Shown: in pieces, positions 851 through 29,299 of the stretch
Position numbering within the stretch: the stretch's first letter is position 1
Layout of the letters: each line of letters opens with the position of its first letter
Virus record (IMG/VR): IMGVR_UViG_3300042301_005284
Coordinates: 1-29,764 of that record
Source: a virus
Strand: one strand, 5' to 3'
Length of the DNA: 29,764 bases
Position numbers and translations under genes: made by a program
Notes under the pieces: model-generated
Databases searched by the model: none
Told to the model about the DNA's origin: nothing
The model's input: only the letters and a program-made list of their open reading frames with translations

Positions 851-2749
851 ATGGCAAACACAGGACTATTCAGTAGATTACAACGATTATTTTCAACAGA
901 TGTAATCATCCGAAACGAAGGAGGATCAAAGTTGAAAGTAATGGATGTTAATAAAATCCAAGTTTCGGGTGAATACGAAACAAATGCACTGATTGATAGA
1001 TTCAATAGAATCTACACTAACTCACACACCTCAATTTATGGTTACCAAAGCAGTTTTAATTACCAAACTTTACGCCCCACACTTTATTCAGAATACGATG
1101 CAATGGATACAGATGCTATCGTTGCTTCTGCCCTAGATATTATTGCTGACGAAAGTACATTACGTAATGATATGGGAGAAGTACTTCAAATTCGTAGCTC
1201 GGATGAAGATGTACAACAAATCCTATATAACCTATTTTATGATGTATTAAACATTGAATTTAACCTATGGCCTTGGATTCGTAACATGTTGAAATACGGT
1301 GATTTTTTCTTAAAACTAGAAATTGCTGAAAAATTTGGTGTATATGGAGTAATTCCTTACAACGCATTCCATATCGAAAGACAAGACGGATACGACAGAG
1401 ACCATCCAGCTTCTGTAAGATTTAGATTTGACCCAGATGGTATCTCATCTCCTTCAGATTATGGTTACTACAATGTACCAAATTCAGGTGGACAAGCTAG
1501 TTCAATTTATTTTGACAACTACGAAATGTCGCATTTCCGTTTGTTAACAGATACTAACTTCTTACCTTACGGTAGATCTTATTTGGAACCAGGACGTAAA
1601 TTGTTTAAACAATATACGATGATGGAAGATGCGATGTTGATTCATAGAATTGTTCGTGCGCCTGAAAAACGTATATTCTATATCAACGTTGGTAATATTG
1701 CACCTGCTGAGGTAGAAAATTTCATGCAGAAAACAATTTCCAAAATGAAACGTACTCCATATATTGATCAACAAACAGGTGATTATAACTTGAAGTACAA
1801 CATGCAAAACTTACTTGAGGATTTCTATATCCCGGTTCGTGGAAATGATCAAGCAACCAAAATTGATAATTTAGGTGGTTTACAGTACGATGGAATCCAG
1901 GATGTTGAATACTTAAGAGATAAATTATTTGCTGCCCTTAAAGTACCTAAAGCATTTATGGGTTACGAAAAAGATTTGACAGGTAAAGCTACATTAGCAG
2001 CTGAAGATATCCGATTCGCACGCACAATTGAACGCATTCAACGTATTGTAGTATCTGAGTTGACTAAAATAGCATTGGTTCACTTATACGCTCAAGGTTA
2101 TACAGACGAATCATTGACAAACTTTGAATTATCTTTAACTACTCCTTCTATTATCTACGATCAAGAAAGAATCGCGTTGATGAAAGAAAAAGTAGATTTA
2201 GCTGCTCAAATGATGGAAAATAAGTTGTTACCAACTGACTATATCTACGAAAATATATTCCACTTGAGTGAAGATCAATACGATGAGTATAGAAACTTGA
2301 TTGCTGAAGATGCTAAACGTAGATTCCGATTAGCTCAAATTGAAAACGAAGGTAATGACCCACTTGAAACAGGTAAATCATATGGTACACCACACGATTT
2401 AGCTGCTCTATATGGTAGAGGTAGATATGATGCTGGTGAAGTACCTGTTGGATATGATGAAAATGCTGATTTAGGTCGTCCTGAAGAAAAAGTAACCAAT
2501 AGAAATACTCAAGATAATGCTCTTGGTAAAGATAGAATTGGAGCTTCTGGAATGAAAAAAGACGGAGATGAATCAGATTCTACAAAAGTAACATATAAAG
2601 GTGGCTCACCACTGGCGTTAGAAACTAAAACCAAACGAAACCCTAATTCTAGAATGTTTAATGATATCAAAAATCAGAAAAAACAAATGATATTTGAGTC
2701 AGATATTAAGGGGAATTCACTCTTAGATGAGTCACAGATACGAGAGTAA
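851..2749 (+). CDS. gp20: Portal vertex protein (T4 gp20-like)
   Basis: This 632-aa protein is the dodecameric portal through which DNA enters and leaves the head; it also nucleates prohead assembly. Family signatures include DTDAIVASALDIIADEST near residue 90, a block near residues 270-285 reading KRIFYINVGNI, then LLEDFYIPVRGNDQATKI and VEYLRDKLFAALKVPKAFMG around residues 320-375. T4 gp20 has a recognisably similar run (RRVFYIDVGNL, MLEDFWLPRR, DIEYFKKKLYRALNVP, from memory). It is about 100 residues longer than T4 gp20 (524 aa). Most of the excess is a hydrophilic C-terminal tail after about residue 500, rich in Asp, Lys, Asn and Gly. It has no Shine-Dalgarno sequence; the leader is A-rich. 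It is probably cotranscribed with the terminase gene. Confidence 0.95.
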   Translation: MANTGLFSRLQRLFSTDVIIRNEGGSKLKVMDVNKIQVSGEYETNALIDRFNRIYTNSHTSIYGYQSSFNYQTLRPTLYSEYDAMDTDAIVASALDIIADESTLRNDMGEVLQIRSSDEDVQQILYNLFYDVLNIEFNLWPWIRNMLKYGDFFLKLEIAEKFGVYGVIPYNAFHIERQDGYDRDHPASVRFRFDPDGISSPSDYGYYNVPNSGGQASSIYFDNYEMSHFRLLTDTNFLPYGRSYLEPGRKLFKQYTMMEDAMLIHRIVRAPEKRIFYINVGNIAPAEVENFMQKTISKMKRTPYIDQQTGDYNLKYNMQNLLEDFYIPVRGNDQATKIDNLGGLQYDGIQDVEYLRDKLFAALKVPKAFMGYEKDLTGKATLAAEDIRFARTIERIQRIVVSELTKIALVHLYAQGYTDESLTNFELSLTTPSIIYDQERIALMKEKVDLAAQMMENKLLPTDYIYENIFHLSEDQYDEYRNLIAEDAKRRFRLAQIENEGNDPLETGKSYGTPHDLAALYGRGRYDAGEVPVGYDENADLGRPEEKVTNRNTQDNALGKDRIGASGMKKDGDESDSTKVTYKGGSPLALETKTKRNPNSRMFNDIKNQKKQMIFESDIKGNSLLDESQIRE

Positions 2750-2788: not shown

Positions 2789-3646
2789 ATGCAAGTCAAA
2801 CATTCAAAGTATAAAAATACTGGTATCCTTTTCGAACTATTAGTTCGTCAAATTACTACCGATACACTAGATGGTAAGGATTCACCAGCTAAAGATATAC
2901 TTAAAAAATATTTCGTTAAAACGGAATTGGGTCGTGAGTACAAGTTATATGAAACGTTATTGAAAAAAACATCTTTGACTGAAACTAAAGCAAATATTGT
3001 TGTTAGTACATTAACTGAATCCTCACTTACCTTAAATAGAAGCGTTATCAAACGCCAGAAATATAATCTGATTAGCGAAATTCAAAAACATTATGATTTA
3101 AACGAGTTTTTTAACCACAAACTCCCAAATTATAAAGTATTTGCTGCGTTTTATACGTTGTTAGAAATTTCAAATGTTCCACAAAATGCTGATATTGATC
3201 AAACGATCAATAATAAAGTGACTATTTTAGAACATTTAACAGCTGCTCAAATCACGGAAAATAAATTACGTGATGAGGTAATGGATGAGTTTAATAACGT
3301 TGATAAAGATGTACGTTTAATTGCATATAAAATGCTTTTGGAAAGTTTTAATTCCAAATACGATACACTGCATGGTAAACAAAAAGAAATCCTTAAAGAA
3401 TATATCACTTCAATTGATAATACATCTCGTTTAAAAGAATTCTATACTAGCAAAATTAATGAAATTAAAGAAACATTAACTTCATTAAACGCTAACACTA
3501 AAAACAAAGTTACTAAAATCAAAATAGACGAAATTATTAATATCATTCAATTACCAGCTAAAAATGCTAAGATAAATGATGATAATCTAGTTGACTTGTT
3601 ACAATACTATGATTTAATTAATGAATTAGAAACTGTAAATGTCTAA
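2789..3646 (+). CDS. Conserved prohead-cluster protein of unknown function (285 aa)
   Basis: I do not recognise a named function. The protein is predicted by eye to be almost entirely alpha-helical and is rich in Lys, Asn, Leu and Ile, with no membrane segment or signal peptide. It opens with a block reading KNTGILFELLVRQIT (about residues 9-23), followed by LGREYKLYETLLKK near residue 48 and YDLNEFFNHKLPNYK near residue 102. I recall similar blocks in uncultured T4-like phages, but I cannot check that here. It lies between portal and prohead protease, where T4 carries the small prohead core genes 67 and 68. Its 3' end overlaps the next gene by 8 bases, suggesting translational coupling. A role in the prohead core or in portal initiation is inference from position only. 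Confidence 0.85.
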   Translation: MQVKHSKYKNTGILFELLVRQITTDTLDGKDSPAKDILKKYFVKTELGREYKLYETLLKKTSLTETKANIVVSTLTESSLTLNRSVIKRQKYNLISEIQKHYDLNEFFNHKLPNYKVFAAFYTLLEISNVPQNADIDQTINNKVTILEHLTAAQITENKLRDEVMDEFNNVDKDVRLIAYKMLLESFNSKYDTLHGKQKEILKEYITSIDNTSRLKEFYTSKINEIKETLTSLNANTKNKVTKIKIDEIINIIQLPAKNAKINDDNLVDLLQYYDLINELETVNV

Positions 3647-4091
3647 ACTTAAAGAAATAATTCGTAAAAAACTCAAAGAAATGAGCGCTACCGGAACAGG
3701 TGGTGCTTCTTTTACTGCGGGTCAAGGTGAAGGATATGCTACCCCGGCTGCGTTTGCTTCTAAAACTAATTCAAAAGGAACTAAAAATATCTATTACTAT
3801 AAGTTAGGATTTAAACCAGTTCCCGATAAAATTAAAGGATCTGGATTGCAGGTTAAACAACTTTGGGAAGAAGATACATTAAACGAAGTAAACGAATTCC
3901 AACAAAAACGTTTAGATGCGTTAGATGAAATTGAAAAACTAATGAACGAAATTAGTCCATTAATTTCAAATGCTAAAAATGAAACAATTGAACTATATAG
4001 CGGAAACGCAGGTTCATACGATATAACAAAACCAATTGAAATGGTAAAGAGTTATCTCCAAGACATAAAACAACTATTATCAGAAAAATAA
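3639..4091 (+). CDS. Prohead-cluster protein with a capsid-like N-terminal arm (150 aa)
   Basis: A small protein of unknown function that overlaps its upstream neighbour by 8 bases and its downstream neighbour by 1. The first 14 residues are Lys-rich and amphipathic and end in L-K-E, which matches the (L/I)xE rule for cleavage by the T4 prohead protease. Ten residues later comes FTAGQGE (residues 25-31). The major capsid protein in this window has the same heptapeptide ten residues after V-V-E61. Further on there is a Tyr/Lys segment, NIYYYKLGFKPV (about residues 50-61), and then a Glu/Leu-rich helical C-terminal half. I infer a capsid-associated protein that is processed together with the capsid. 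It could also be a prohead core protein. Confidence 0.85.
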   Translation: MSKLKEIIRKKLKEMSATGTGGASFTAGQGEGYATPAAFASKTNSKGTKNIYYYKLGFKPVPDKIKGSGLQVKQLWEEDTLNEVNEFQQKRLDALDEIEKLMNEISPLISNAKNETIELYSGNAGSYDITKPIEMVKSYLQDIKQLLSEK

Positions 4092-6043
4092 TGAAAAAGA
4101 CACTACAAGATCAGTATTTGTTAATTAAAGAAGGTAAAGGACATAAAGGTGTTTTCTTATCAGAAGCAAAACGTCAATTCCCAGATATCGTTCGTAATGC
4201 AGCTACATTTAATGAAGCAGCAGCTTCTCTTATCACTAAAAAAATCATTTCAGAAAATGTAATTGGTTTAGGAGCTATTAATTCTCCATTTGAAGTTAAG
4301 AAAAAACAATCATTTGAAACTGCGTTTGAATCATTTTTAGCTGAAGCTAAGAAAAAAGAAAACGAAGAAGAGAAAGTAAAAGCTGAAGAGAAAAAAGTGT
4401 CTAAACCTGTTGAAGAAGATTACTCACGTAATTTTGATCGTAAAGACGATAAAAACATAGACAACTTGATTTTTGATCAAGTAATGACTGGGTACTACGC
4501 TGAAATGAAAGATCCTAAAAATGCAGATAAAACAATGCAGGAATTGAAGGATATCGTAATGAAAAACTTACAAAAAGATCCTATTTTCTATACAAAGGAT
4601 GGTCAATTTGGAGTTAAAGGTTTAGGATACACAACTGAAGCACCTGGATTAGGTACTCCAAAAGAAGCTAAAGGAAAATACAAATCAAGCGGATATGGTG
4701 ATTTAAAAGAAAGTGTAGAGAAAAAATTTGTATCGAATATTAAAGATCTAGCAACTAAAAAAACAACTAATTTCACCCAGGCACAAAAAATAGCTAAAAT
4801 AGCTCAAAAACGCGAAGAAGACCTTGAAGACAGAAAATTAAGAGATAAACCACTTAATGAAAAAGCATATTTAGGAGCATATGGAAATTACCCACACCAA
4901 TCCACCCCACTAGATATTGAAGATTATTTAGAACAGGTAGAAGGTATGTCTAAATCTGAAGCTATAGAATATTTAGGTAAACAAGGTTTATCTAGTTCAC
5001 AAGCCTTAAAAGTAATCTCTCAAATGGATACAGATGTTAGAGATATGTTTGATGATACAGATGTTAAAATATATAGCGCTGATGATTTATATGAACAAAA
5101 AATACGTGAAGTAATTCGTGAAATGATTGCTGGAGAACTTGAAGAAGTAGCTCAATTATCTACAATAATGGCTCCTTTTAAATCTGAACCAAAAGACACA
5201 AACCCTTCAGACCCAAAAGATCAATATCCATCAATTTCTCCTAAACTAGAAGATTTTTTACGTAGCAAAAAATATTTAAAATCTAGTGGAAATACAATCC
5301 TTATTCGCTCTAAACTATTAAATAAATCAAATTTCCATTTACTCCCAATAGATACAGAGTATGATTCTAATTTTTTGAACTTTCTCAATAATTCTTCCAA
5401 CATTGGAGGATCACCAATTAAACTCCCAGTAGATGGAGTTCTTCAAGATTTTACTCCTCTTAATAATGTTAAGATAAATAGAAATGGAAAACTTTCATTC
5501 TTCAAACCAGCTCCTAAAAATTCAATGAAAGATATAATGGAATCTTTAAAAGAAAGTGTAGAAAAAGATTTATCTGATATCAACAAAGAAGCAGAACAAG
5601 AAGTTTTGCAAACTAAATTGGAAAAAATTGACGCTTTAATCGATCACAGACGTTCTAAACTTTCAAAACTTGACGAAGATGAAGATATGAAAGCTTTAAC
5701 TGATAAGAAAAAAGTTAAAGAACTTGAAAAAGACATCAAAGCACTTGAAAACGCTAAGAAAAAAGTTGAGAAAATAATGTCGAAATTCAAAGGTAAAAAA
5801 GCTGAATCCAAAGAAGTTATTGACGAAATGGATAATGCAGATGCAGTTGTAGCTAATGTTCCTGAGGGTATTGTAAACGATGCTTTAAGAAGATTAGAGA
5901 ATGAAGAAGAAATTGATTCAATCCTTAGCAACTACCAAAATATATCAGTTGAGGATAAAAATAATTTAAGAATTTTTCTTAATTCAAAAAAAGCCTCAAA
6001 CCCTCGTTTAGACCAGGAGTTAAACGATGAAGATCCAGAATAA
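4091..6043 (+). CDS. Large charged prohead-cluster protein, probable core or internal head protein (650 aa)
   Basis: No named family is recognised. The start codon overlaps the previous stop (taATG). The N-terminus has a recognisable block: YLLIKEGKGHKGVF (residues 9-22), then FPDIVRNAATFNEAA and KKIISENVIGL up to about residue 60. I have seen similar blocks in environmental T4-like phages, but I cannot verify this. Residues 85-115 are a Lys/Glu-rich stretch. The middle holds LNEKAYLGAYGNYPHQST and a helical segment, GMSKSEAIEYLGKQGLSSSQ, near residues 285-305. Residues about 480-580 form a strong predicted coiled coil of alternating Lys and Glu. The charge pattern and position between portal and protease suggest a core or internal head protein. 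Function is inference. Confidence 0.85.
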   Translation: MKKTLQDQYLLIKEGKGHKGVFLSEAKRQFPDIVRNAATFNEAAASLITKKIISENVIGLGAINSPFEVKKKQSFETAFESFLAEAKKKENEEEKVKAEEKKVSKPVEEDYSRNFDRKDDKNIDNLIFDQVMTGYYAEMKDPKNADKTMQELKDIVMKNLQKDPIFYTKDGQFGVKGLGYTTEAPGLGTPKEAKGKYKSSGYGDLKESVEKKFVSNIKDLATKKTTNFTQAQKIAKIAQKREEDLEDRKLRDKPLNEKAYLGAYGNYPHQSTPLDIEDYLEQVEGMSKSEAIEYLGKQGLSSSQALKVISQMDTDVRDMFDDTDVKIYSADDLYEQKIREVIREMIAGELEEVAQLSTIMAPFKSEPKDTNPSDPKDQYPSISPKLEDFLRSKKYLKSSGNTILIRSKLLNKSNFHLLPIDTEYDSNFLNFLNNSSNIGGSPIKLPVDGVLQDFTPLNNVKINRNGKLSFFKPAPKNSMKDIMESLKESVEKDLSDINKEAEQEVLQTKLEKIDALIDHRRSKLSKLDEDEDMKALTDKKKVKELEKDIKALENAKKKVEKIMSKFKGKKAESKEVIDEMDNADAVVANVPEGIVNDALRRLENEEEIDSILSNYQNISVEDKNNLRIFLNSKKASNPRLDQELNDEDPE

Positions 6044-6044
6044 G

Positions 6045-6677
6045 ATGACTAAACAACTATTAATAGAGACTAGACATTTCAGCCCCAAACCACTTTCATT
6101 ATTGGAAGGGATGAAAACTAACGGAAATGTTTTCGTTGAAGGTATATTGGCTACTGTTGAAGTTAAAAATGGTAATGGTCGCTACTATCCTAGAGAATTA
6201 TGGGAACGTGAAATCGACAATTTTACACGTAAAATCCAAATGAAATCAACTGAAACATGTGGTGAATTGGACCATCCTGACTCGCAAGTAATCAACCTTA
6301 AAAACGCATCTCATGCGGTGCGTGAATTGTATTGGAAAGGTGATGAAATATGGGGTAAAGTAGAAATTTTCTCTGACATGGGTGATTTAGGTACTTCATC
6401 TGGCCGTATAGCAGGTGCATTAGTTAAAAATGGCTTATTGATTGGTATTTCTTCTCGTGGAATGGGTTCATTAAAAGAAATAGGTGGAGTAATGGAAGTA
6501 CAAGACGACTTCGAATTACTAACTTGGGATTTAGTTTCCAACCCATCCAACCCAGATTCATGGATGAAAAATGGTGCATTAAACGAATCACGTACTACAT
6601 TCTTGGATCCATACGCTAAAACAAACTCACTTATTACCGAAATTTTATGTGCTAAAGGCACATGTCCGATATTTTAA
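6045..6677 (+). CDS. gp21: Prohead core protease (T4 gp21-like)
   Basis: This serine protease (U9/S77-type) processes scaffold and capsid proteins inside the prohead before DNA packaging. Family blocks are NGNGRYYPRELW, CGELDHP with the probable catalytic His (codon at 6273), and GISSRGMGSL with the probable catalytic Ser (codons 6450-6455). T4 gp21 has closely related blocks, GELNHP and GVSSRGLGSL. An ATG at 6027 in the same frame would add six residues and overlap the preceding gene by 17 bases. I prefer 6045, two bases after the upstream stop at 6041-6043, because MTKQLLIET lines up with the T4 gp21 start MNEPQLLIET as I remember it. Length from 6045 is 210 aa against 212 in T4. A terminator follows directly. 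Confidence 0.93.
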   Translation: MTKQLLIETRHFSPKPLSLLEGMKTNGNVFVEGILATVEVKNGNGRYYPRELWEREIDNFTRKIQMKSTETCGELDHPDSQVINLKNASHAVRELYWKGDEIWGKVEIFSDMGDLGTSSGRIAGALVKNGLLIGISSRGMGSLKEIGGVMEVQDDFELLTWDLVSNPSNPDSWMKNGALNESRTTFLDPYAKTNSLITEILCAKGTCPIF

Positions 6678-6865: not shown

Positions 6866-8158
6866 ATGGCAACAAACAGAGAAATGCTTAAAGAAGCAAT
6901 CGCTGACGCTAAAGCTGTTAAAGAAACTGCAATAGCAAACGCAAAAGCTGCTCTAGAAGAAGCCTTCGCACCTCAATTGAAATCAATGTTATCAATGAAA
7001 CTTCAAGAAATTGAAGAATCAGAAGAAAATGACATGAAAACCGAAATGTACGGTATAGAAGAAGAAGAAGAAACCTATACAGAAGAAGCACATGAAGGAA
7101 AAAAGACGGAAATTGATTTGGAAGAACTTTTAGCGGAGCTAGAATTAGAAGAAGGAGATGAAACATCACTTAACGAAGCCGAAGAAGAGGAAGAAGAAGA
7201 CATGGAAATGTCTGACGAAGAATCTGAAGAAGGTGAAGAAGAAGGTGAACCAATCGAACTCGAAGACATGACAGACGAAGATCTAAAAGATATGATCGAA
7301 GATGTTATTAAAGACATGATTGCATCCGGAGAACTTGAAGCTGGTCACGAAGGTGAAGAAGGCGAAGAAGAAGGTGAAGAATCAGAAGAAGGCGAAGAAG
7401 AAGAAATCGACTTAGCAGAACTATTAAGAGAAATCGAAGAAATGGAAGAACCAGTAAAAGAAATAACTGGAATCTTTAAAAAAGATCCAGCTAAGAAAAT
7501 GGCAAGTGCTGCAAAAGAATTTGATGGATTTGTAAAAAGTGAAATTGCATCTAGGGAAATACCAGAAATGGTAAAGGAATTTGGAAATTTATCTCCAAAC
7601 GATCCTAAATACATGGAACTAATTGTTAAGTATCTTGATCATCCTAAGTTTACAACAGCTGCTGGTAATTATATGAGCTCAATTGGTAAAACCACAAGTG
7701 GTGCTAAATATTTAGCTTACTTTAGAGATATTTTTGGCAAAGAAGTCTTTACTACCCCAGCATACGGACCAGAAGGACGTGGTGGTGCTAACGTTGATGA
7801 AACTATGGAAGCTGAATTAAAAGAAGCTTATTCAACAATCGAAACTCTTAAGTCTGAATTGAACGAAATCAATTTGTTAAATGCTAAATTGCTTTACACA
7901 AATAAAATCTTCAAAGCTAAAAACTTGAATGAAAGTCAAAAAGTAAAAGTGTTAAGTTCTTTTGATAAAGCTAACAATGTAGGTGAAGTGAAAATGGTAT
8001 TTGAAACATTAAACGAGGGTATTAAAGTTTCTAAAAACATCATTAAAGAAAACCTAGGTAGCGCATCAAAAACAACAATGACGCCTAACGTTAAAAAACC
8101 AATCGTAGAGTCAAACGAGGCATTCTTAAGAATGCAAAAATTGGCAGGAATTATTTAA
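6866..8158 (+). CDS. gp22: Prohead core scaffolding protein (T4 gp22-like), very acidic
   Basis: This 430-aa protein lies in the gene 22 position, between the gp21 protease and the gp23 capsid. It starts with a helical Ala/Lys/Glu segment to about residue 50, followed by long Glu/Asp tracts (about residues 65-195). A less acidic globular-looking stretch with FKKDPAKKMASAAKEFDGF and YFRDIFGKEVF covers roughly residues 200-300. A helical region containing INLLNAKLLYTNKIFKAKNL follows, and the end reads FLRMQKLAGII. Acidic helical composition, position and processing partner all fit a prohead core scaffold degraded by gp21 during maturation. It is much longer than T4 gp22 (269 aa), mainly through the acidic tracts and the 200-300 stretch. 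A weak TAGGA stands upstream of the start. The dyad at 6818-6837 probably drives it. Confidence 0.85.
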   Translation: MATNREMLKEAIADAKAVKETAIANAKAALEEAFAPQLKSMLSMKLQEIEESEENDMKTEMYGIEEEEETYTEEAHEGKKTEIDLEELLAELELEEGDETSLNEAEEEEEEDMEMSDEESEEGEEEGEPIELEDMTDEDLKDMIEDVIKDMIASGELEAGHEGEEGEEEGEESEEGEEEEIDLAELLREIEEMEEPVKEITGIFKKDPAKKMASAAKEFDGFVKSEIASREIPEMVKEFGNLSPNDPKYMELIVKYLDHPKFTTAAGNYMSSIGKTTSGAKYLAYFRDIFGKEVFTTPAYGPEGRGGANVDETMEAELKEAYSTIETLKSELNEINLLNAKLLYTNKIFKAKNLNESQKVKVLSSFDKANNVGEVKMVFETLNEGIKVSKNIIKENLGSASKTTMTPNVKKPIVESNEAFLRMQKLAGII

Positions 8159-8184: not shown

Positions 8185-9873
8185 ATGTCAAGTATTAATT
8201 CATTACTAGAAAGCGCAGCAGGTGGGTGGAAAAACCTACAGAATGACGCAGCTCGTATGTCCTCAAAATGGGGTAAAACGGGATTATTAGAAGGATTAGG
8301 AAGCGAAGTTGATAAAAACAACATGGCTATGATCCTTGAAAACCAAGCAAAACAATTAGTTGTTGAGCAATCAAACACACAAGTTGGAGGTTCAGGATTT
8401 ACAGCAGGTCAAGGTGAAACTTGGGCAGGTGTAGCTCTTCCATTGGTACGTAAAGTATTCGGTTCTTTATCAACTAAAGAATTCATGTCTGTACAACCAA
8501 TGAATTTACCATCTGGACTTGTATTCTTCTTAGATTTCCAATATGGTGATCCAGCAGGTAAAGTTGCTCCAAACGGTAATTTTGGCCCTGCAGGAGATGT
8601 TTACGGTGCTACCTCTTCAATGTACGGTAACACAAACCCAGCTAATGGTGCTGACCCATCTCAAGGTTTGTATGGTGCAGGTCGTTTTGCATACTCAATT
8701 AACCAATTCTCTGCATCTGTTACTAACGTAACTGTAGCTTCAAGTAGCTGGGCTGATTTCCAATATGCTGCTGAATATTCAGCTTCTGCAGTTACAGGAT
8801 TTACTAAAATTAACGTTCCTTTAACAAATGCTACTAATTACGATTCTAAAGGTGTTCGTGCATTCGTTATCGCTTCAGGTTCAGCTGTAACAGCTGCTGC
8901 TAATGCTCGTTTGTTACCTCAGTTCACTACAGTAACAAATAACACTGCATCATTTATCTTTAGTGGTTCTATCGGTTCAGCTGTAGGAACTCTTCCAGCT
9001 GCTGGAACAAATACATTGTTCTTCAACAGACAACCAACTGATAATACACGTGGTGATTTCGAAGATAATTCAGGTGCAGGTTACCCTAACGCTGAGTCTA
9101 CTTCAACAGATCAATTAGCTATTCCACAGATTAACATTAACATGAAATCTGAGGCTATCGTTGCTAAAACACGTAAATTGAAAGCACAATGGACACCAGA
9201 ATTCGCACAGGATTTGAACGCATACCAATCATTGGATGCTGAAGCTGAATTAACATCTATCATGTCTGAGTACATCGCATTAGAGATCGACTTAGAAAAC
9301 TTAGATATGTTGATCCAAGATGCTTCTGCTGCTGATGAGTACTGGAATGCTCAAAACAACCAATCATTGAATGCTGCTAAAACAGGATACGATAACTTGA
9401 ACTTCTACAACACTCAAGGTGCTTGGTTCCAAACATTGGGAACTAAATTCCAAAAAGTAAGTAACAAAATCCACCAGAAAACTCTTCGTGGAGGTGCTAA
9501 CTTCTTGGTATGTTCTCCAGCTGTAGGAACGATTCTTGAATCAATCCCAGGATATGCTTCATCTTCTGATGGTGATGTTACTAAAGCGTCTTACGCATTT
9601 GGTATCCAAAAAGCAGGTCAAATGAACAGCCGTTTCACAGTTTACAAAAACCCTTACATGACGGAAAACGTTATCTTGATGGGTTATAGAGGAGCTCAAT
9701 TCCTTGAAACTGGTGCTGTATTTGCTCCATATGTTCCATTAATCATGACACCTCTTGTGTACGATCCAAACACCTTCACACCACGTAAAGGTTTATTAAC
9801 TCGTTACGCTAAGAAAATGATCCGTCCGGAATTCTACGGTCGCGTATTCGTGTCTGGTTTGAACACTATCTAA
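8185..9873 (+). CDS. gp23: Major capsid protein (T4 gp23-like)
   Basis: This 562-aa protein forms the head lattice. The block FTAGQGETWAGVALPLVRKVF followed by SVQPMNLPSGLVFFLDFQYG (from about residue 72 to 120) matches the T4 gp23 segment with IAAGQ and VQPMNSPTGQVFALRAVYG. The N-terminal region before it corresponds to the cleaved delta domain. The best candidate gp21 cut by position is V-V-E61, with I-L-E52 as an alternative that fits the (I/L)xE rule better. Residues about 140-300 hold Ala/Ser/Thr/Gly-rich sequence, probably the insertion domain. The C-terminal P-domain includes FLVCSPAVGTILESI and PFYG-like RPEFYGRVFVSGL. The codon choice looks regular, as expected for an abundant protein. 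A terminator follows. Confidence 0.96.
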   Translation: MSSINSLLESAAGGWKNLQNDAARMSSKWGKTGLLEGLGSEVDKNNMAMILENQAKQLVVEQSNTQVGGSGFTAGQGETWAGVALPLVRKVFGSLSTKEFMSVQPMNLPSGLVFFLDFQYGDPAGKVAPNGNFGPAGDVYGATSSMYGNTNPANGADPSQGLYGAGRFAYSINQFSASVTNVTVASSSWADFQYAAEYSASAVTGFTKINVPLTNATNYDSKGVRAFVIASGSAVTAAANARLLPQFTTVTNNTASFIFSGSIGSAVGTLPAAGTNTLFFNRQPTDNTRGDFEDNSGAGYPNAESTSTDQLAIPQININMKSEAIVAKTRKLKAQWTPEFAQDLNAYQSLDAEAELTSIMSEYIALEIDLENLDMLIQDASAADEYWNAQNNQSLNAAKTGYDNLNFYNTQGAWFQTLGTKFQKVSNKIHQKTLRGGANFLVCSPAVGTILESIPGYASSSDGDVTKASYAFGIQKAGQMNSRFTVYKNPYMTENVILMGYRGAQFLETGAVFAPYVPLIMTPLVYDPNTFTPRKGLLTRYAKKMIRPEFYGRVFVSGLNTI

Positions 9874-17869: not shown

Positions 17870-19018
17870 ATGAATATTCCAATTTGGCCAGGTTCAAGTA
17901 GCTTCTTCCCAGGCGATACACCTTTCGGATTTTACGATAACGACTATCAATTCCAACAGGATGCTGATAAGTTTGCTACATTTGCATCCCGCAGATTAGG
18001 ATATCCATTAGTTGAAATCGAATTGCAAGATTTGAACTTCTATGCTGCCTTTGAAGAGGCAATTACAACCTATGGAAACGAGCTATACGCTTATCAAGTA
18101 GCAGAAAATTTACTATCTTTCCAAGGTGCTCCAACTTCTATAGGTGCGGCAAATGATCAAGTTGTACAAGACAATATGGCCTCTGTTGTCCGCTTATCTA
18201 ACCAATATGGTGAGGAAGCCGGAGTAGGTGGAACAGTTACTTGGAGAACAGGATCCATGGCTCTAACAGCAAGTAAACAAAATTATGACATGAATGCTTG
18301 GGCACAATCCCAAGGTATTCAAGGTCGAATAGAAATCAAACGTATATTTTACGAGGCACCTCCCGCAATTACAAGATACTTTGATCCATATGCAGGTACA
18401 GGTACGGGAATGATGCAAATGTTAGATAGCTTTGGATGGGGATCATATTCTCCCGCAATTAACTTCATGCTAATGCCTATCAGTTACGATATGCAAAAAA
18501 TTCAAGCAATTGAATTAAACGATCAAATTAGAAAATCACAATACACATTTGAGCTAGTAAACAATCAATTGAGATTGTTTCCAATTCCAATATCCCATTA
18601 CCATAATTTGCGTTTTGAATATATTTTGGAATCTGACCGCAACAACCCATACATGGAAAACAACGGTCAAAGTTTGATTACCAACGCCTCTAATGTACCA
18701 TACGAAAACCCAACATATACCGCGATTAACTCAATTGGTCGTCAATGGATATTTGAATATTCGTTAGCGATTGTAAAAGAAATCCTAGGATATGTTAGAG
18801 GAAAATATGCTACTATTCCAATCCCTGGATCCGAAGTAACATTGAATCAAGGTGATTTGATTGCAGCAGCAACAAGTGAAAAAAACGCGTTAATAGAACG
18901 TTTAAGAGCATACTTTGATACAACTTCTCGCAAAACATTGCTTGCAAATAAAGCAGAAGAAGCACAAAGTCAGATGAGTATCTTAACGGATGTACCAATG
19001 TGTATCTTTATCGGTTGA
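17870..19018 (+). CDS. gp13: Neck protein (T4 gp13-like)
   Basis: A 382-aa protein placed with gp14-like and gp15-like genes. In T4, gp13 and gp14 form the neck that closes the filled head for tail joining. The start MNIPIWPGSSSFFPGDTPFGFYD is followed by a helical segment, FASRRLGYPLVEIELQDLNFYAAFEEAI (about residues 40-67), a block that recurs in environmental gp13-like proteins as I recall them. Later strands include YTFELVNNQLRLFPIP, and a C-terminal helix, LIERLRAYFDTTSRKTLLANKAEEAQ, precedes the end PMCIFIG. It is longer than T4 gp13 (309 aa). Assignment rests on pattern memory and neighbours. The stop TGA at 19016 lies at the insertion point of the homing endonuclease gene. Confidence 0.75.
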   Translation: MNIPIWPGSSSFFPGDTPFGFYDNDYQFQQDADKFATFASRRLGYPLVEIELQDLNFYAAFEEAITTYGNELYAYQVAENLLSFQGAPTSIGAANDQVVQDNMASVVRLSNQYGEEAGVGGTVTWRTGSMALTASKQNYDMNAWAQSQGIQGRIEIKRIFYEAPPAITRYFDPYAGTGTGMMQMLDSFGWGSYSPAINFMLMPISYDMQKIQAIELNDQIRKSQYTFELVNNQLRLFPIPISHYHNLRFEYILESDRNNPYMENNGQSLITNASNVPYENPTYTAINSIGRQWIFEYSLAIVKEILGYVRGKYATIPIPGSEVTLNQGDLIAAATSEKNALIERLRAYFDTTSRKTLLANKAEEAQSQMSILTDVPMCIFIG

Positions 19019-19020
19019 TT

Positions 19021-19782
19021 ATGGTAGTATATTGCACAACAAATAAAACCAATGGAAAAAAGTATATAGGATCAGATTCTAAAAATGACCCTAGATACTA
19101 TGGTTCTGGAGTAAATATAAAAAAAGCTATTAAAAAACATGGTAGAGAAAATTTTGTAAAACAAATTCTTTGCGAAGTAGATACTATAGATTTAATGAAA
19201 GAATTAGAAGAATATTGGATAGATTATTTTGATGCTTATAACAATCCATTATTTTACAATGCCACCAAATATGCTGCGGGTATCTCATCTTTTCCAGAAC
19301 ATAAAAAAATAAATATTTCCATAGCTAATAAGGGGAATAAATATCATACTGGTCACAAACAAACTGAATATCAAAAAGAACAAACTAAAAAAGCAAATAC
19401 TGGAAAAAAACATACGGAAGAATTTAAAGCTTTAAAAAAACAAAAAGCTCTAGGAAACCAATATGCCCTGGGAAATACATTAACCCCAGAACAATGTAAT
19501 AAAATTTCTCTTAAAAAAATCAACCATTCATGTTACTCTAATCCTGAAAGAAATAAAAAGATTAGTGAATCTCTTAGAAACAGACCTAAATCGTCTACTT
19601 TTAATCCTAGATTAAAAAAACCTGTATTACAATACGATTTAGATGGAATATTTATCAAAGAATGGAACAGCGGAAAAGAAGCTGCTCTCTCATTGAACCT
19701 ATGCCAGCCTAACATAAATGCTTGCTGCAATAATAAAATCCCCAAATATAAAGGATTTATTTGGAAATTTAAAAAACAATAG
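19021..19782 (+). CDS. GIY-YIG homing endonuclease (free-standing)
   Basis: A 253-aa nuclease of the GIY-YIG superfamily. The N-terminus carries VVYCTTNKTNGKKYIG, a variant in which GIY is VVY but YIG is intact. A likely catalytic Arg is in DPRYYGSG (residue 25), and the Glu metal ligand is in ELEEYWIDYF (residues 61-64). The middle has NUMOD3-like DNA-binding repeats such as HTGHKQTEYQKEQTKKANTG and GKKHTEEFK. The C-terminal 50 residues (LQYDLDGIFIKEWNSGKEAA to YKGFIWKFKK) match a NUMOD1/IENR1-like module. A start at 19000 is possible but would overlap gp13; I prefer 19021 because the nuclease fold begins there. The Lys-rich, A-rich composition differs from the neck genes around it. It is probably a mobile gene rather than a virion part. 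Confidence 0.92.
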   Translation: MVVYCTTNKTNGKKYIGSDSKNDPRYYGSGVNIKKAIKKHGRENFVKQILCEVDTIDLMKELEEYWIDYFDAYNNPLFYNATKYAAGISSFPEHKKINISIANKGNKYHTGHKQTEYQKEQTKKANTGKKHTEEFKALKKQKALGNQYALGNTLTPEQCNKISLKKINHSCYSNPERNKKISESLRNRPKSSTFNPRLKKPVLQYDLDGIFIKEWNSGKEAALSLNLCQPNINACCNNKIPKYKGFIWKFKKQ

Positions 19783-25803: not shown

Positions 25804-27546
25804 ATGGCAGAAGTAATTGTATCACCTGGTGTATTAGCAATAGAAAACGATCAATCATTTGTAACTCAACAACCTGTACAAGCAGGAGCCGCTATCATAG
25901 GCCCTGCAGTAAAAGGTAAAGTAGGTATCCCTACGATAGTTACTTCATATACAGATTATTTAAATAAGTTTGGTGCTACTTTCCTTAGCGGAAGTAACAC
26001 CTACACTTATTTTACCTCAATAGCAGCATATAACTACTTCAACAATGGAGGAGCTTCATTGCTTGTAACTCGTGTAGTAACAGGTTCATTTACAGCCGCA
26101 TCATCTTCATTTATATCTGCTTCTGCACATGCTGCAGGTTCCCCTTACAATACAGATGTATTTACCTTAGAGACAATCTCTAAAGGAGAAATCATGAACA
26201 GTACAGGACCAACAGGAAACGTTGGTACTCTATTAAGCGGATCAGCAGATAACTTCAGATGGCAGATTACTTCAGCTAATACATCATCCGGTACGTTCTA
26301 TTTATTGGTTCGTCAAGGTAATGATACAAGTGTTTCCCCATCAATTTTAGAAACATGGGGCCCATTGTCACTAGATCCATATTCAAACGATTACATTGAA
26401 AAAGTAATTGGTAACCAAGTTGAAAATATAGCAAGTGATAACGGTGAATTTTATATTCAATTATCTGGAAGTTATCCAAACAATTCATCTTACGTACGTG
26501 TTAAAGCAGTAAACCAACCTACACCAAATTATTTTGATAATGTAGGTAATCCAAAAGCACAATATACTGGTTCAATTCCATTAAATAATAGTGGCTCATT
26601 TGGTTCAGCAACAGGAAAAAATGTAGTAGCCGGAGGAAGTGCATATTACGAAGCAATCACCTTAGACACTAATATTCAAGGATTAAACGCTAGTAACTAT
26701 ACACAATCAATTTCTCTATTAGCAAATAAAGATGCATTCAAATACAACGTATTAGTTGCACCTGGATTAATGTCTGATATTGGAAGTACATCATTCAATG
26801 CTATTACCGCAATGTATACCATAGCTCAAAATAGAGGAGATATGATGGTAGTATTTGATTCATCAAAATATAACTCCCAAATTGGATCAGTGTTAACAAA
26901 CACAGTAGGATATGATACATCATATGCTGCAACATATTGGCCTTGGGTAAAAACAATTGATCCAAGTACCGCAAACCAAGTTTGGGTACCTGCTTCAACA
27001 TTAATTCCTGGAGTATATGCATTTAACGATAACGTTGCTGCTCCATGGTTTGCACCTGCTGGTGTTAATAGAGGTATTTTAACTACAGCTATACAAGCAG
27101 AACGTGTATTAACTCAAGGAAACAGAGATACATTATATCAATCAAACGTTAATCCAATTGCTACTTATCCTAATACAGGTGTAGTAGTATTTGGACAAAA
27201 AACATTACAAAAGAAAAAAAGTTCATTAGATCGTATCAACGTAAGACGTTTGTTGATCGAATTGAAATCATATATTTCTCAAGTAGCAGATACATTTGTA
27301 TTTGAACAAAATGACACTGTTACTAGAAATAACTTCTTAGCCATTATCAATCCATACTTAGCTTCTGTTCAACAACAACAAGGTTTGACAGCATTTAAAG
27401 TAGTAATGGATGAGACAAACAACCCACCATCTGTAGTAGATAACAACCAGTTAGTAGGTCAAATATATTTACAACCAACTAGAACAGCTGAATTCATTCT
27501 ATTAGACTTTAATATATTACCTACAGGTGCAACGTTTCCTGCTTAG
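25804..27546 (+). CDS. gp18: Tail sheath protein, copy 1 (T4 gp18-like)
   Basis: A 580-aa contractile sheath subunit. The N-terminus VSPGVLAIENDQSF and then QPVQAGAAIIGPAVKGKVGIPT, FGATF and AAYNYFNNGGASLLVTRVV follow the gp18 arrangement (SPGIELKE, GKFQWGP, FGQPT, FLQYGNDLRVVRAV in T4, from memory). The conserved C-terminal core has WVPASTLIPGVYAFNDNVAAPWFAPAG, LDRINVRRLLIELKSYI and LQPTRTAEFILLDF. These C-terminal strands interlock neighbouring subunits in the contracted and extended sheath. All conserved parts are present, so this copy should be functional. A second complete copy lies 46 bases downstream. Length is shorter than T4 gp18 (659 aa), mainly in the surface domains. Confidence 0.95.
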   Translation: MAEVIVSPGVLAIENDQSFVTQQPVQAGAAIIGPAVKGKVGIPTIVTSYTDYLNKFGATFLSGSNTYTYFTSIAAYNYFNNGGASLLVTRVVTGSFTAASSSFISASAHAAGSPYNTDVFTLETISKGEIMNSTGPTGNVGTLLSGSADNFRWQITSANTSSGTFYLLVRQGNDTSVSPSILETWGPLSLDPYSNDYIEKVIGNQVENIASDNGEFYIQLSGSYPNNSSYVRVKAVNQPTPNYFDNVGNPKAQYTGSIPLNNSGSFGSATGKNVVAGGSAYYEAITLDTNIQGLNASNYTQSISLLANKDAFKYNVLVAPGLMSDIGSTSFNAITAMYTIAQNRGDMMVVFDSSKYNSQIGSVLTNTVGYDTSYAATYWPWVKTIDPSTANQVWVPASTLIPGVYAFNDNVAAPWFAPAGVNRGILTTAIQAERVLTQGNRDTLYQSNVNPIATYPNTGVVVFGQKTLQKKKSSLDRINVRRLLIELKSYISQVADTFVFEQNDTVTRNNFLAIINPYLASVQQQQGLTAFKVVMDETNNPPSVVDNNQLVGQIYLQPTRTAEFILLDFNILPTGATFPA

Positions 27547-27592: not shown

Positions 27593-29299
27593 ATGGCAAA
27601 TTTTACAGTATCCCCTGGGGTAGCAATTAGTGAGATAGACAACACGTATTTAACAGGGCAACCTGTTCAAGCTGGTGCTGCTATTATAGGCCCAACAGTT
27701 AAAGGACCTGTTGAGACACCAACATTGGTAACTTCTTACTCTGATTTCGTAACGTTATTTGGAGATAGTTTTATTAGTGGTGGTAACGCTTATTCATACC
27801 TTACTTCAATTGCAGCTTACAATTATTTCAACTACGGTGGAACTTCATTATTGGTAGCACGTGTAGTAACAGGATCATATACATCCGCAGTTAGTACCGT
27901 AGCTTCAAATTATTTGAACGTAGCTTCATCTTCATTCACTTTAGAAACGATTTCTGAAGGTGTTATCATGAACAGTTCAGGCTCATTAGATACTTCTGGA
28001 TCATTAGTTTCTGGATCCGCAAATAATATTAGATTTGAAATTACAAATTCCAACACCGGATCAGGTACATTTAACGTAGTAATTAGACGTGGTAATGATA
28101 CTACAAACAATAAAGTTGTTTTAGAAGCATTTAATAGTGTTAATTTAGATCCAAATTCTCCACGATATATTTCTGCAGTAATTGGTGATCAAACATTAAA
28201 TTATAATTCATCTACAGTACAAATGGAATTGTCTGGAAGTTATCCAAACTCATCTAGATTTGTACGTGTTAAAGCGGTTAACTATCCAACACCAAACTAT
28301 TTTGATTCCAATGGAGCCCCAGTAAGTGCATATACAGCATCTATTCCAATGAACGGAAGTGGATCATTTAGTACTGCAACTGGAGATATTTCAGGATCTA
28401 CAGGAGCTACAATGTACGATAATATCGGTATTAATACTCAAGGTTTAATAGGTTCATGCTATAACAACATGATTGCATTGCTTGGAAACCCAGAAGCATA
28501 TCAATTTAATGTATTGTTTGCTCCTGGATTAACAAATGATGCCCATCCCACACAAATTACAAATATTATTTCTAACACACAACAACGTGGAGATAATTTA
28601 TTTGTAACAGATTTAACATTATATAATGGAACCGTTGCTAGTGCAGTAACTCAAGCACAAACAAGAGATACTTCATATGCCGCTACCTACTGGCCTTGGG
28701 TCCGCATCGTAGACCCAGCAACAGGAAAACAAGTATGGGTACCAGCTTCAACTGTAATACCAGGTGTATATGCTTTCAATGATAAAGTAGCTGCTCCATG
28801 GTTTGCACCTGCAGGAATCAACAGAGGTGGATTATCTACAGTATTACAAGCTCAATTTAAATTGTCTCAAGGAAACAAAGATACATTATATTCAAGTAAT
28901 ATTAATCCATTAGCAACATTACCTAAACAAGGTGTTGTAGTATACGGAAATAAAACGTTACAAAAAGCAGCTTCTGCTCTTGATCGTGTAAATGTACGTC
29001 GTTTGATGATTGAATTAAAATCATATATTCGCCAAATTGCAGATACAGTAGTATTTGAACAAAACACTATCGCAACAAGAAATTCATTTATAGCACGTGT
29101 TACTCCATTCTTAGAAGGAATCCAACAAAAACAAGGATTATACGCTTACAAAGTAGTAATGGATGATTCAAATAACGGACCAGCAGTAATTGATCAAAAT
29201 CAATTAGTAGGCCAAATTTATATCCAACCAACACGCACAGCTGAATTTATATCTCTAGATTTCATCTTAACTCCAACAGGAACTGAATTCCCAGGGTAA
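27593..29299 (+). CDS. gp18: Tail sheath protein, copy 2 (T4 gp18-like paralogue)
   Basis: A 568-aa full-length paralogue of copy 1. N-terminal and C-terminal cores align closely: VSPGVAISEIDNTYLTGQPV, TSIAAYNYFNYGGTSLLVAR, WVPASTVIPGVYAFNDKVAA, LDRVNVRRLMIELKSYIRQI and IQPTRTAEFISLDF. The middle domain diverges more in sequence and length, for example between residues about 95 and 150 and around 255-270. By eye the N-terminal 95 residues are over half identical. No stop, frameshift or loss of a conserved block suggests decay. The tail tube gene follows. This could be a mixed sheath, a specialised ring at one end of the tail, or an alternative sheath; the sequence does not say which. Confidence 0.95.
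   Translation: MANFTVSPGVAISEIDNTYLTGQPVQAGAAIIGPTVKGPVETPTLVTSYSDFVTLFGDSFISGGNAYSYLTSIAAYNYFNYGGTSLLVARVVTGSYTSAVSTVASNYLNVASSSFTLETISEGVIMNSSGSLDTSGSLVSGSANNIRFEITNSNTGSGTFNVVIRRGNDTTNNKVVLEAFNSVNLDPNSPRYISAVIGDQTLNYNSSTVQMELSGSYPNSSRFVRVKAVNYPTPNYFDSNGAPVSAYTASIPMNGSGSFSTATGDISGSTGATMYDNIGINTQGLIGSCYNNMIALLGNPEAYQFNVLFAPGLTNDAHPTQITNIISNTQQRGDNLFVTDLTLYNGTVASAVTQAQTRDTSYAATYWPWVRIVDPATGKQVWVPASTVIPGVYAFNDKVAAPWFAPAGINRGGLSTVLQAQFKLSQGNKDTLYSSNINPLATLPKQGVVVYGNKTLQKAASALDRVNVRRLMIELKSYIRQIADTVVFEQNTIATRNSFIARVTPFLEGIQQKQGLYAYKVVMDDSNNGPAVIDQNQLVGQIYIQPTRTAEFISLDFILTPTGTEFPG

Follow-up and report, generated by a model that had tools for sequence, protein, structure and literature searches.

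Why should a small protein encoded among the head genes of a T4-like phage carry, close to its N-terminus, a stretch that matches the N-terminal arm of the phage's major capsid protein, and what might such a protein do? The question is raised by a 29.8-kb piece of viral DNA (29,764 nucleotides, analysed as a whole and called the window here), which is a fragment of a T4-like phage and also carries terminase, PhoH and tail genes. By its capsid protein, the closest cultured relative is Flavobacterium phage vB_FspM_immuto (58% identity), and for this reason a Bacteroidota host is likely. The gene in question encodes 150 amino acids and sits between the portal gene, together with a 285-aa gene, and the gene for the prohead protease. 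The head genes of the window are as follows.

851-2749, plus strand: portal protein (gp20; PF07230, E 5.7e-69)
2789-3646, plus strand: conserved 285-aa protein with no function assigned (ORF and gene context)
3639-4091, plus strand: 150-aa arm-mimic gene (ORF with at least 294 IMG/VR relatives and no family match)
4091-6043, plus strand: 650-aa protein between mimic and protease, likely a core protein to judge from its position
6027-6677, plus strand: prohead protease (gp21, Peptidase_S77; PF03420, E 1.8e-26), the proposed processing enzyme
6866-8158, plus strand: acidic scaffold-like protein in the place of gp22, from position and composition
8185-9873, plus strand: major capsid protein of the gp23 family, 562 aa (PF07068, E 1.4e-69; phrog_138)

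The 285-aa gene lies directly upstream of the arm-mimic gene in every locus that was read, and the acidic scaffold-like protein gave no family match in Pfam and PHROG searches. The 650-aa neighbour starts MKKTLQDQYLLIKEGKGHK, a stretch with an L/I-x-E-like site, and may likewise be a core protein that undergoes processing. Elsewhere in the window there are two tandem tail-sheath genes (25804-27546 and 27593-29299, 580 and 568 aa), both matching phrog_23 with E about 1e-73, and a homing endonuclease with a GTG start (19000-19782; phrog_314, E 9e-36) that overlaps the end of the neck-like gene at 17870.

In the small protein, E14 is followed by ten residues and then by FTAGQGE (residues 25-31, bases 3711-3731), and in the capsid protein, E61 is likewise followed by ten residues and FTAGQGE (residues 72-78, bases 8398-8418). 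This correspondence of Glu, spacing and heptapeptide was the core of a preliminary description of the DNA, and it proved exact when the ORFs were re-read. FTAGQGE is the sole 7-mer that the small protein has in common with another ORF of at least 40 aa on the plus strand of the window, and the only 5- and 6-mers shared in this set are sub-words of it. The range 3678-3731 runs from E14 to the end of FTAGQGE, and the likeness extends to about base 3755, with YATPAAF in the small protein set against WAGVALP in the capsid protein. The two proteins can thereby be divided into the following parts.

3639-3680, plus strand: putative pro-region of the small protein, residues 1-14 (MSKLKEIIRKKLKE), which ends L-K-E14 (sequence)
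3681-3755, plus strand: arm-mimic module, residues 15-39 (MSATGTGGASFTAGQGEGYATPAAF; module profile A1 and capsid-arm profile A3)
3711-3731, plus strand: FTAGQGE in the small protein, equal to capsid residues 72-78 (sequence comparison)
3792-4088, plus strand: conserved C-terminal part, made of the YYYKLGFKPVPDK segment and two long helices (alignment A4 and AF2 model)
8185-8367, plus strand: putative capsid pro-region, residues 1-61, which ends V-V-E61 (sequence)
8368-8445, plus strand: capsid N-fist equivalent and the next segment, residues 62-87 (QSNTQVGGSGFTAGQGETWAGVALPL; sequence comparison and capsid-arm profile)

For the 150-aa protein there was no Pfam, PHROG or PDB sequence match above threshold, and tblastn searches of 50,697 GenBank phage records, with the small protein and stretches related to it, yielded no useful match. 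The AF2 model has a mean pLDDT of 62.9, with low confidence outside the C-terminal helices (residues 72-122 and 130-148); it places a helix at residues 2-17 of the pro-region and predicts the arm part to be disordered, residues 11-54 being mostly below a pLDDT of 50. No fold match was returned when this model was compared to the PDB with Foldseek, which says little because the mean pLDDT is so low. By Pfam and the AF2 model, the HK97-type capsid domain (PF07068) is absent from the protein, whose body is two long helices, and the capsid likeness is confined to the 25-residue arm. In the open-licence literature, neither a description of an arm-mimic protein, of which an earlier account elsewhere is possible, nor particle proteomics for the module-bearing phages (Immutovirus, RM378) was found.

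The arm-mimic is a conserved family, spread over a large set of T4-like phages whose hosts are aquatic bacteria. The relatives in IMG/VR (80 loci kept) share the Glu and the motif SxTxxGGASFxxGxGxxYATPxAF, and the capsid proteins encoded on those contigs read SxTxxGGxxFxxGQGExWAGVALPL; the family piece can be written as E and then xSxTG..(SFxxGxG)..YATPxAF, starting right after the Glu. Homologues thus keep both of the features from which the preliminary description had started, and a loss of the motif, which would have told against that description, is not seen. When 37 contigs were fetched by their capsid protein alone, each holding portal, protease and capsid genes in that order, the module gene lay between portal and protease in 35 of them. 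A scan of the DNA for GYATPxAF also found the module placed centrally or at the end in further, longer proteins; these are largely the same gene with another pro-region, or with the C-terminal part lost or split off, and they keep the place after the 285-aa gene and before the protease. The immuto version has 73 aa (QQO91878.1) and that of phage Mel-JY01 has 178 aa (WWT39308.1). In the cultured phage RM378, the module is in p116 (NP_835703.1), which adjoins gp21, with the capsid gene 20 kb away; the Glu is followed by MTTTGDIAGY in the module and by TTQTTEVDGW in the capsid protein, with nine residues from Glu to aromatic in both. In L103 (6721-7729) the mimic gene is split just past the module, with the helical C-terminal part as a separate, overlapping gene, and L096 is split in the same way, and two short-module copies occur in one large ORF of jumbo-type phage in L090 and L115 (the latter a 365-kb contig).

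Profile searches connect module and capsid arm from both sides. Profile A1, made from 19 modules without any capsid protein, was run in all six frames on 18 whole records, the longest of 365 kb, and matched the module gene in 17, the exception being T4. The sole other gene matched was that of the capsid protein, in nine records and at the arm after the Glu (E 8e-5 to 7e-3; three minus-strand matches were assigned to capsid arms by coordinates), with no third gene in any record. Profile A3, made from 18 capsid arms without any module, ranked the capsid arm first over 22 records and the module gene second in 11 (E 8e-8 to 5e-4), with no third gene at E up to 10, and in the six-frame window the 150-aa protein was the single second match (E 1.4e-8). 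At profile length there was no cross-match between module and capsid arm in the short-linker phages or in L037, for the latter in both directions (A1 and A3). A1 found nothing in T4, S-PM2, HTVC008M, KVP40 or PA5oct, and the MS-detected neighbour proteins of PA5oct had, by eye, no copy of that phage's capsid arm. The resemblance of the small protein to the capsid arm is real and beyond chance.

The resemblance is also specific to the phage, in that the hypervariable module linker follows the capsid protein of the same phage in both sequence and length. Linkers, taken from the Glu to the aromatic residue, were paired between the module and the capsid protein of the same contig; own pairs scored a mean of 44.9 versus 27.1 for permuted pairs (sd 1.4), and equal linker length was seen in 59 of 87 pairs versus 23 expected. 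The excess of own pairs stays when clades are the units (21 clades at 70% capsid-core identity, p < 5e-5). Changes of single traits on the tree are few, with one to three independent changes each, and because these are too few, the single-trait tree tests were replaced by a swap test of whole linkers, which used 169 pairs after three more capsid scans, in tree-disjoint pairs. About 30 favoured the own linker, 15 opposed it and 18 tied (sign test, median p 0.036; Wilcoxon, median p about 0.003), and 81% of the summed difference fell on the own side. Clear cases of matched module and capsid linkers are L063 (ISATNQGGASFSSNAGQGAQ / QSSTNQGGAAFSSNVGQGAQ), L471 (ASMTGTGTSISTGASAA / ANATGTGTSISTGNSEA) and L365 (ESSTGGGTAGASFEPGVGMN / SSQTGAGTAGATFTAGVGEQ), with L457 as a further striking one; there are also mismatched clades, with a capsid linker of 21 versus a module linker of 9 (L275, L299, L300).

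What such an arm could be doing is suggested by T4. Processing there removes 65 residues from gp23, and the next 25 make up the N-fist; this element contacts four subunits, lies disordered within the prohead, and is relocated to the outer surface as the shell expands (PMC9958956). It becomes ordered on expansion via inter-capsomer contacts (PMC9958956, PMC7136217), and in the five gp23* subunits that face the portal it is disordered, since the neighbouring capsomer is missing there (PMC7136217). The shared stretch had been equated beforehand with this part of gp23 by way of the T4 sequence IAAGQ; the region is indeed the same, namely the N-fist with its lattice contacts, but the IAAGQ comparison holds by position only because T4 shows no detectable copy of the module.

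With a probability of roughly 0.45, our main reading is that the 150-aa protein is a prohead-core protein that is cut after E14 by the gp21-type protease and thereby presents a new arm at N-fist docking sites. The short helical pro-region would take the protein into the prohead core of a Far-T4-type phage, the protease would cut after E14, as is thought for the capsid protein after E61, and the new N-terminus would be an arm resembling the N-fist of the phage's own capsid protein. During maturation, this arm would occupy docking sites of the capsid N-fist, with vacant ones beside the portal or the five-fold vertices as the likeliest, and would anchor or plug, with the helical C-terminal part, or a freed peptide where that part is absent, at the shell. 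For the 150-aa protein we infer all of this, that is, cleavage, presence in the particle, docking and its site. The view is largely that of the preliminary description, which proposed a protein cut by the capsid's own protease that enters or mimics the lattice contact of the capsid arm, and the resemblance, its conservation and the N-fist position bear it out in part. As the module spans the stretch of the T4 N-fist, docking in N-fist sites would be the natural reading, and a position beside the portal or vertices is a guess. A wider claim is more doubtful: that the protein or freed peptide is a "capsid-arm mimic" that would fill those N-fist sites that the capsid protein cannot, such as the portal-facing ring, would finish or signal maturation, and would be a general component of Far-T4 heads that coevolves with the capsid arm.

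Cleavage itself can be judged from the Glu junction. The pro-region is a 14-residue helix in the window versus about 135 unrelated residues in L238, L274 and L293, with yet other starts before the Glu in L007 and L032, and these differing pro-regions all end in Glu, with homologous sequence after it. The window protein has a short N-terminal pro-sequence with an L/I-x-E-type motif (MSKLKEIIRKKLKE14), and the arm sequence directly follows the protease-type Glu, as in N-fist-bearing proteins. T4-type prohead proteases require a short motif with Glu as its last residue (in SPN3US A-X-E, and an analogous one in T4), and the propeptides known for them range from 10 to more than 120 residues (PMC5694885). 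From the Glu junction, the context of the protease motif and the gp24-like pro-region, we strongly infer a cut by a gp21-type protease after E14. The foremost alternative stays with the enzyme and takes the shared stretch to be an extended P-prime docking site for the gp21-type protease, which would give the small protein the cut efficiency or timing of the capsid protein with no role in the shell. In its favour, the two proteins become alike from the P1 Glu onward, the P3 residue is L, I or V in all but 5 of 87 modules (82) and V, I or L in nearly all capsid proteins, the module gene adjoins that of the protease, and a common enzyme would explain the covariation. We nevertheless hold it to be unlikely, as the known T4-type proteases need only the short motif (PMC5694885), the most divergent position is P1-prime (mostly Met in modules versus Ala, Gln or Glu in capsid proteins), with the conserved positions 4-20 residues downstream, and in the searched genomes the stretch is absent from all other genes, the scaffold included.

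A second alternative makes the 150-aa protein a core protein like T4 gp67 or gp68, wholly degraded, with the arm freed as a peptide or leaving the head and the likeness serving core-shell assembly before cleavage. Genes 67 and 68 occupy the same place between gp20 and gp21, and their products end up as small peptides after cutting (PMC9958956). One clade (L087, L099, L111, L122, L163), moreover, has the module as the extreme C-terminus and no helical part; a cut after the Glu would there release a peptide of only some 31 residues, and tethering, as the main reading has it, could then not be general. In most clades, however, the Glu is followed by a conserved domain that is partly helical, no sequence likeness of the 150-aa protein to gp67 or gp68 was seen (PHROG, Pfam and tblastn, and the module profile on T4), and the T4 proteins are without a detectable copy of the arm, all of which makes this alternative rather improbable. 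The products of the module genes in that same clade begin FNIHDWQAKQ, and FDIHKWQAKF, a similar stretch, opens the immuto protein whose gene comes right behind that of the protease (L082:10340-10567); this start is possibly a separate prohead-targeting tag.

Less probable again is that part of the capsid gene, its 5' end, was duplicated long ago and that the two copies were kept alike by gene conversion or descent, without a shared partner. Such a duplication would suit the module and capsid pairs of L063 and L049, which are alike in DNA as well, and the part of the covariation that is deep co-inheritance according to the tree analysis. The preliminary description had also spoken of copying and pointed to the DNA of the heptapeptide, which does differ at only 2 of 21 bases between the two genes (the 18 aligned codons have 28 of 54 bases and 11 of 18 residues in common). 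The count stands, but it is not evidence of copying because, over 87 phage pairs, codons at shared residues are identical in 49% versus a background of 45-46%. Gene conversion as the main cause was dropped on the same figures, and since codon identity is hardly above background, they point to selection on the protein and mostly not to recent copying of DNA. Module and capsid genes are, besides, about 4.5 kb apart in the window and about 20 kb in RM378, and past the aromatic residue YATPxAF and WAGVALPL are fixed in different forms on the two sides in all clades, so that likeness is maintained in the arm alone. That the Gly/Ser/Thr-rich linkers, for all their low complexity, are similar by chance is refuted by the scores of residue-shuffled modules (6.0, sd 0.7, versus 44.9 for own pairs) and by profile E-values of 1e-8 to 1e-3 when whole genomes were searched and no third gene was hit.

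T4-like phages beyond the classic coliphages abound in water, and in them the genes that separate portal and protease are unnamed. If a core protein carries a second version of the shell's lattice arm, these genes gain a testable role, and it bears on what, if anything, occupies the N-fist sites of T4 that face the portal and vertices. A short, phage-specific peptide of this kind might also place cargo or block maturation in laboratory phages.

Among known systems, the N-fist of T4 gp23* (66-91) is the same stretch and, like the module, has 25 residues right after a cleavage site, but in T4 no second protein with the arm is known or was found here. The T4 internal proteins IPI-IPIII and Alt have a capsid-targeting sequence cut by gp21, and the mimic, also small and presumably of the head, shares with them a short and charged N-terminal pro-sequence whose last residue is a Glu that fits the protease motif; it would likewise be cleaved and packaged. 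The internal proteins, however, are not encoded between gp20 and gp21, no capsid-arm sequence has been described after their cut, and the pro-region of the mimic family can have 14 or about 135 aa. The core proteins gp67 and gp68 share the place of the mimic in the portal-protease interval of the gene order, and differ in being degraded and in having no detectable copy of the capsid arm. The vertex protein gp24 has a ten-residue propeptide, MAKINELLRE, that is cut by gp21 and is similar in character to MSKLKEIIRKKLKE, but gp24 is a full paralogue with the capsid fold, whereas the mimic has the arm alone on an unrelated helical body. Finally, head proteins of SPN3US and phiKZ have A-X-E or S-X-E sites and short or very long propeptides and are cut after the Glu; in gp53 and gp54, which have identical 15-residue N-termini, the shared stretch is the propeptide that is removed, whereas in the mimic it is the part that would remain after the proposed cut, and it matches the capsid protein.
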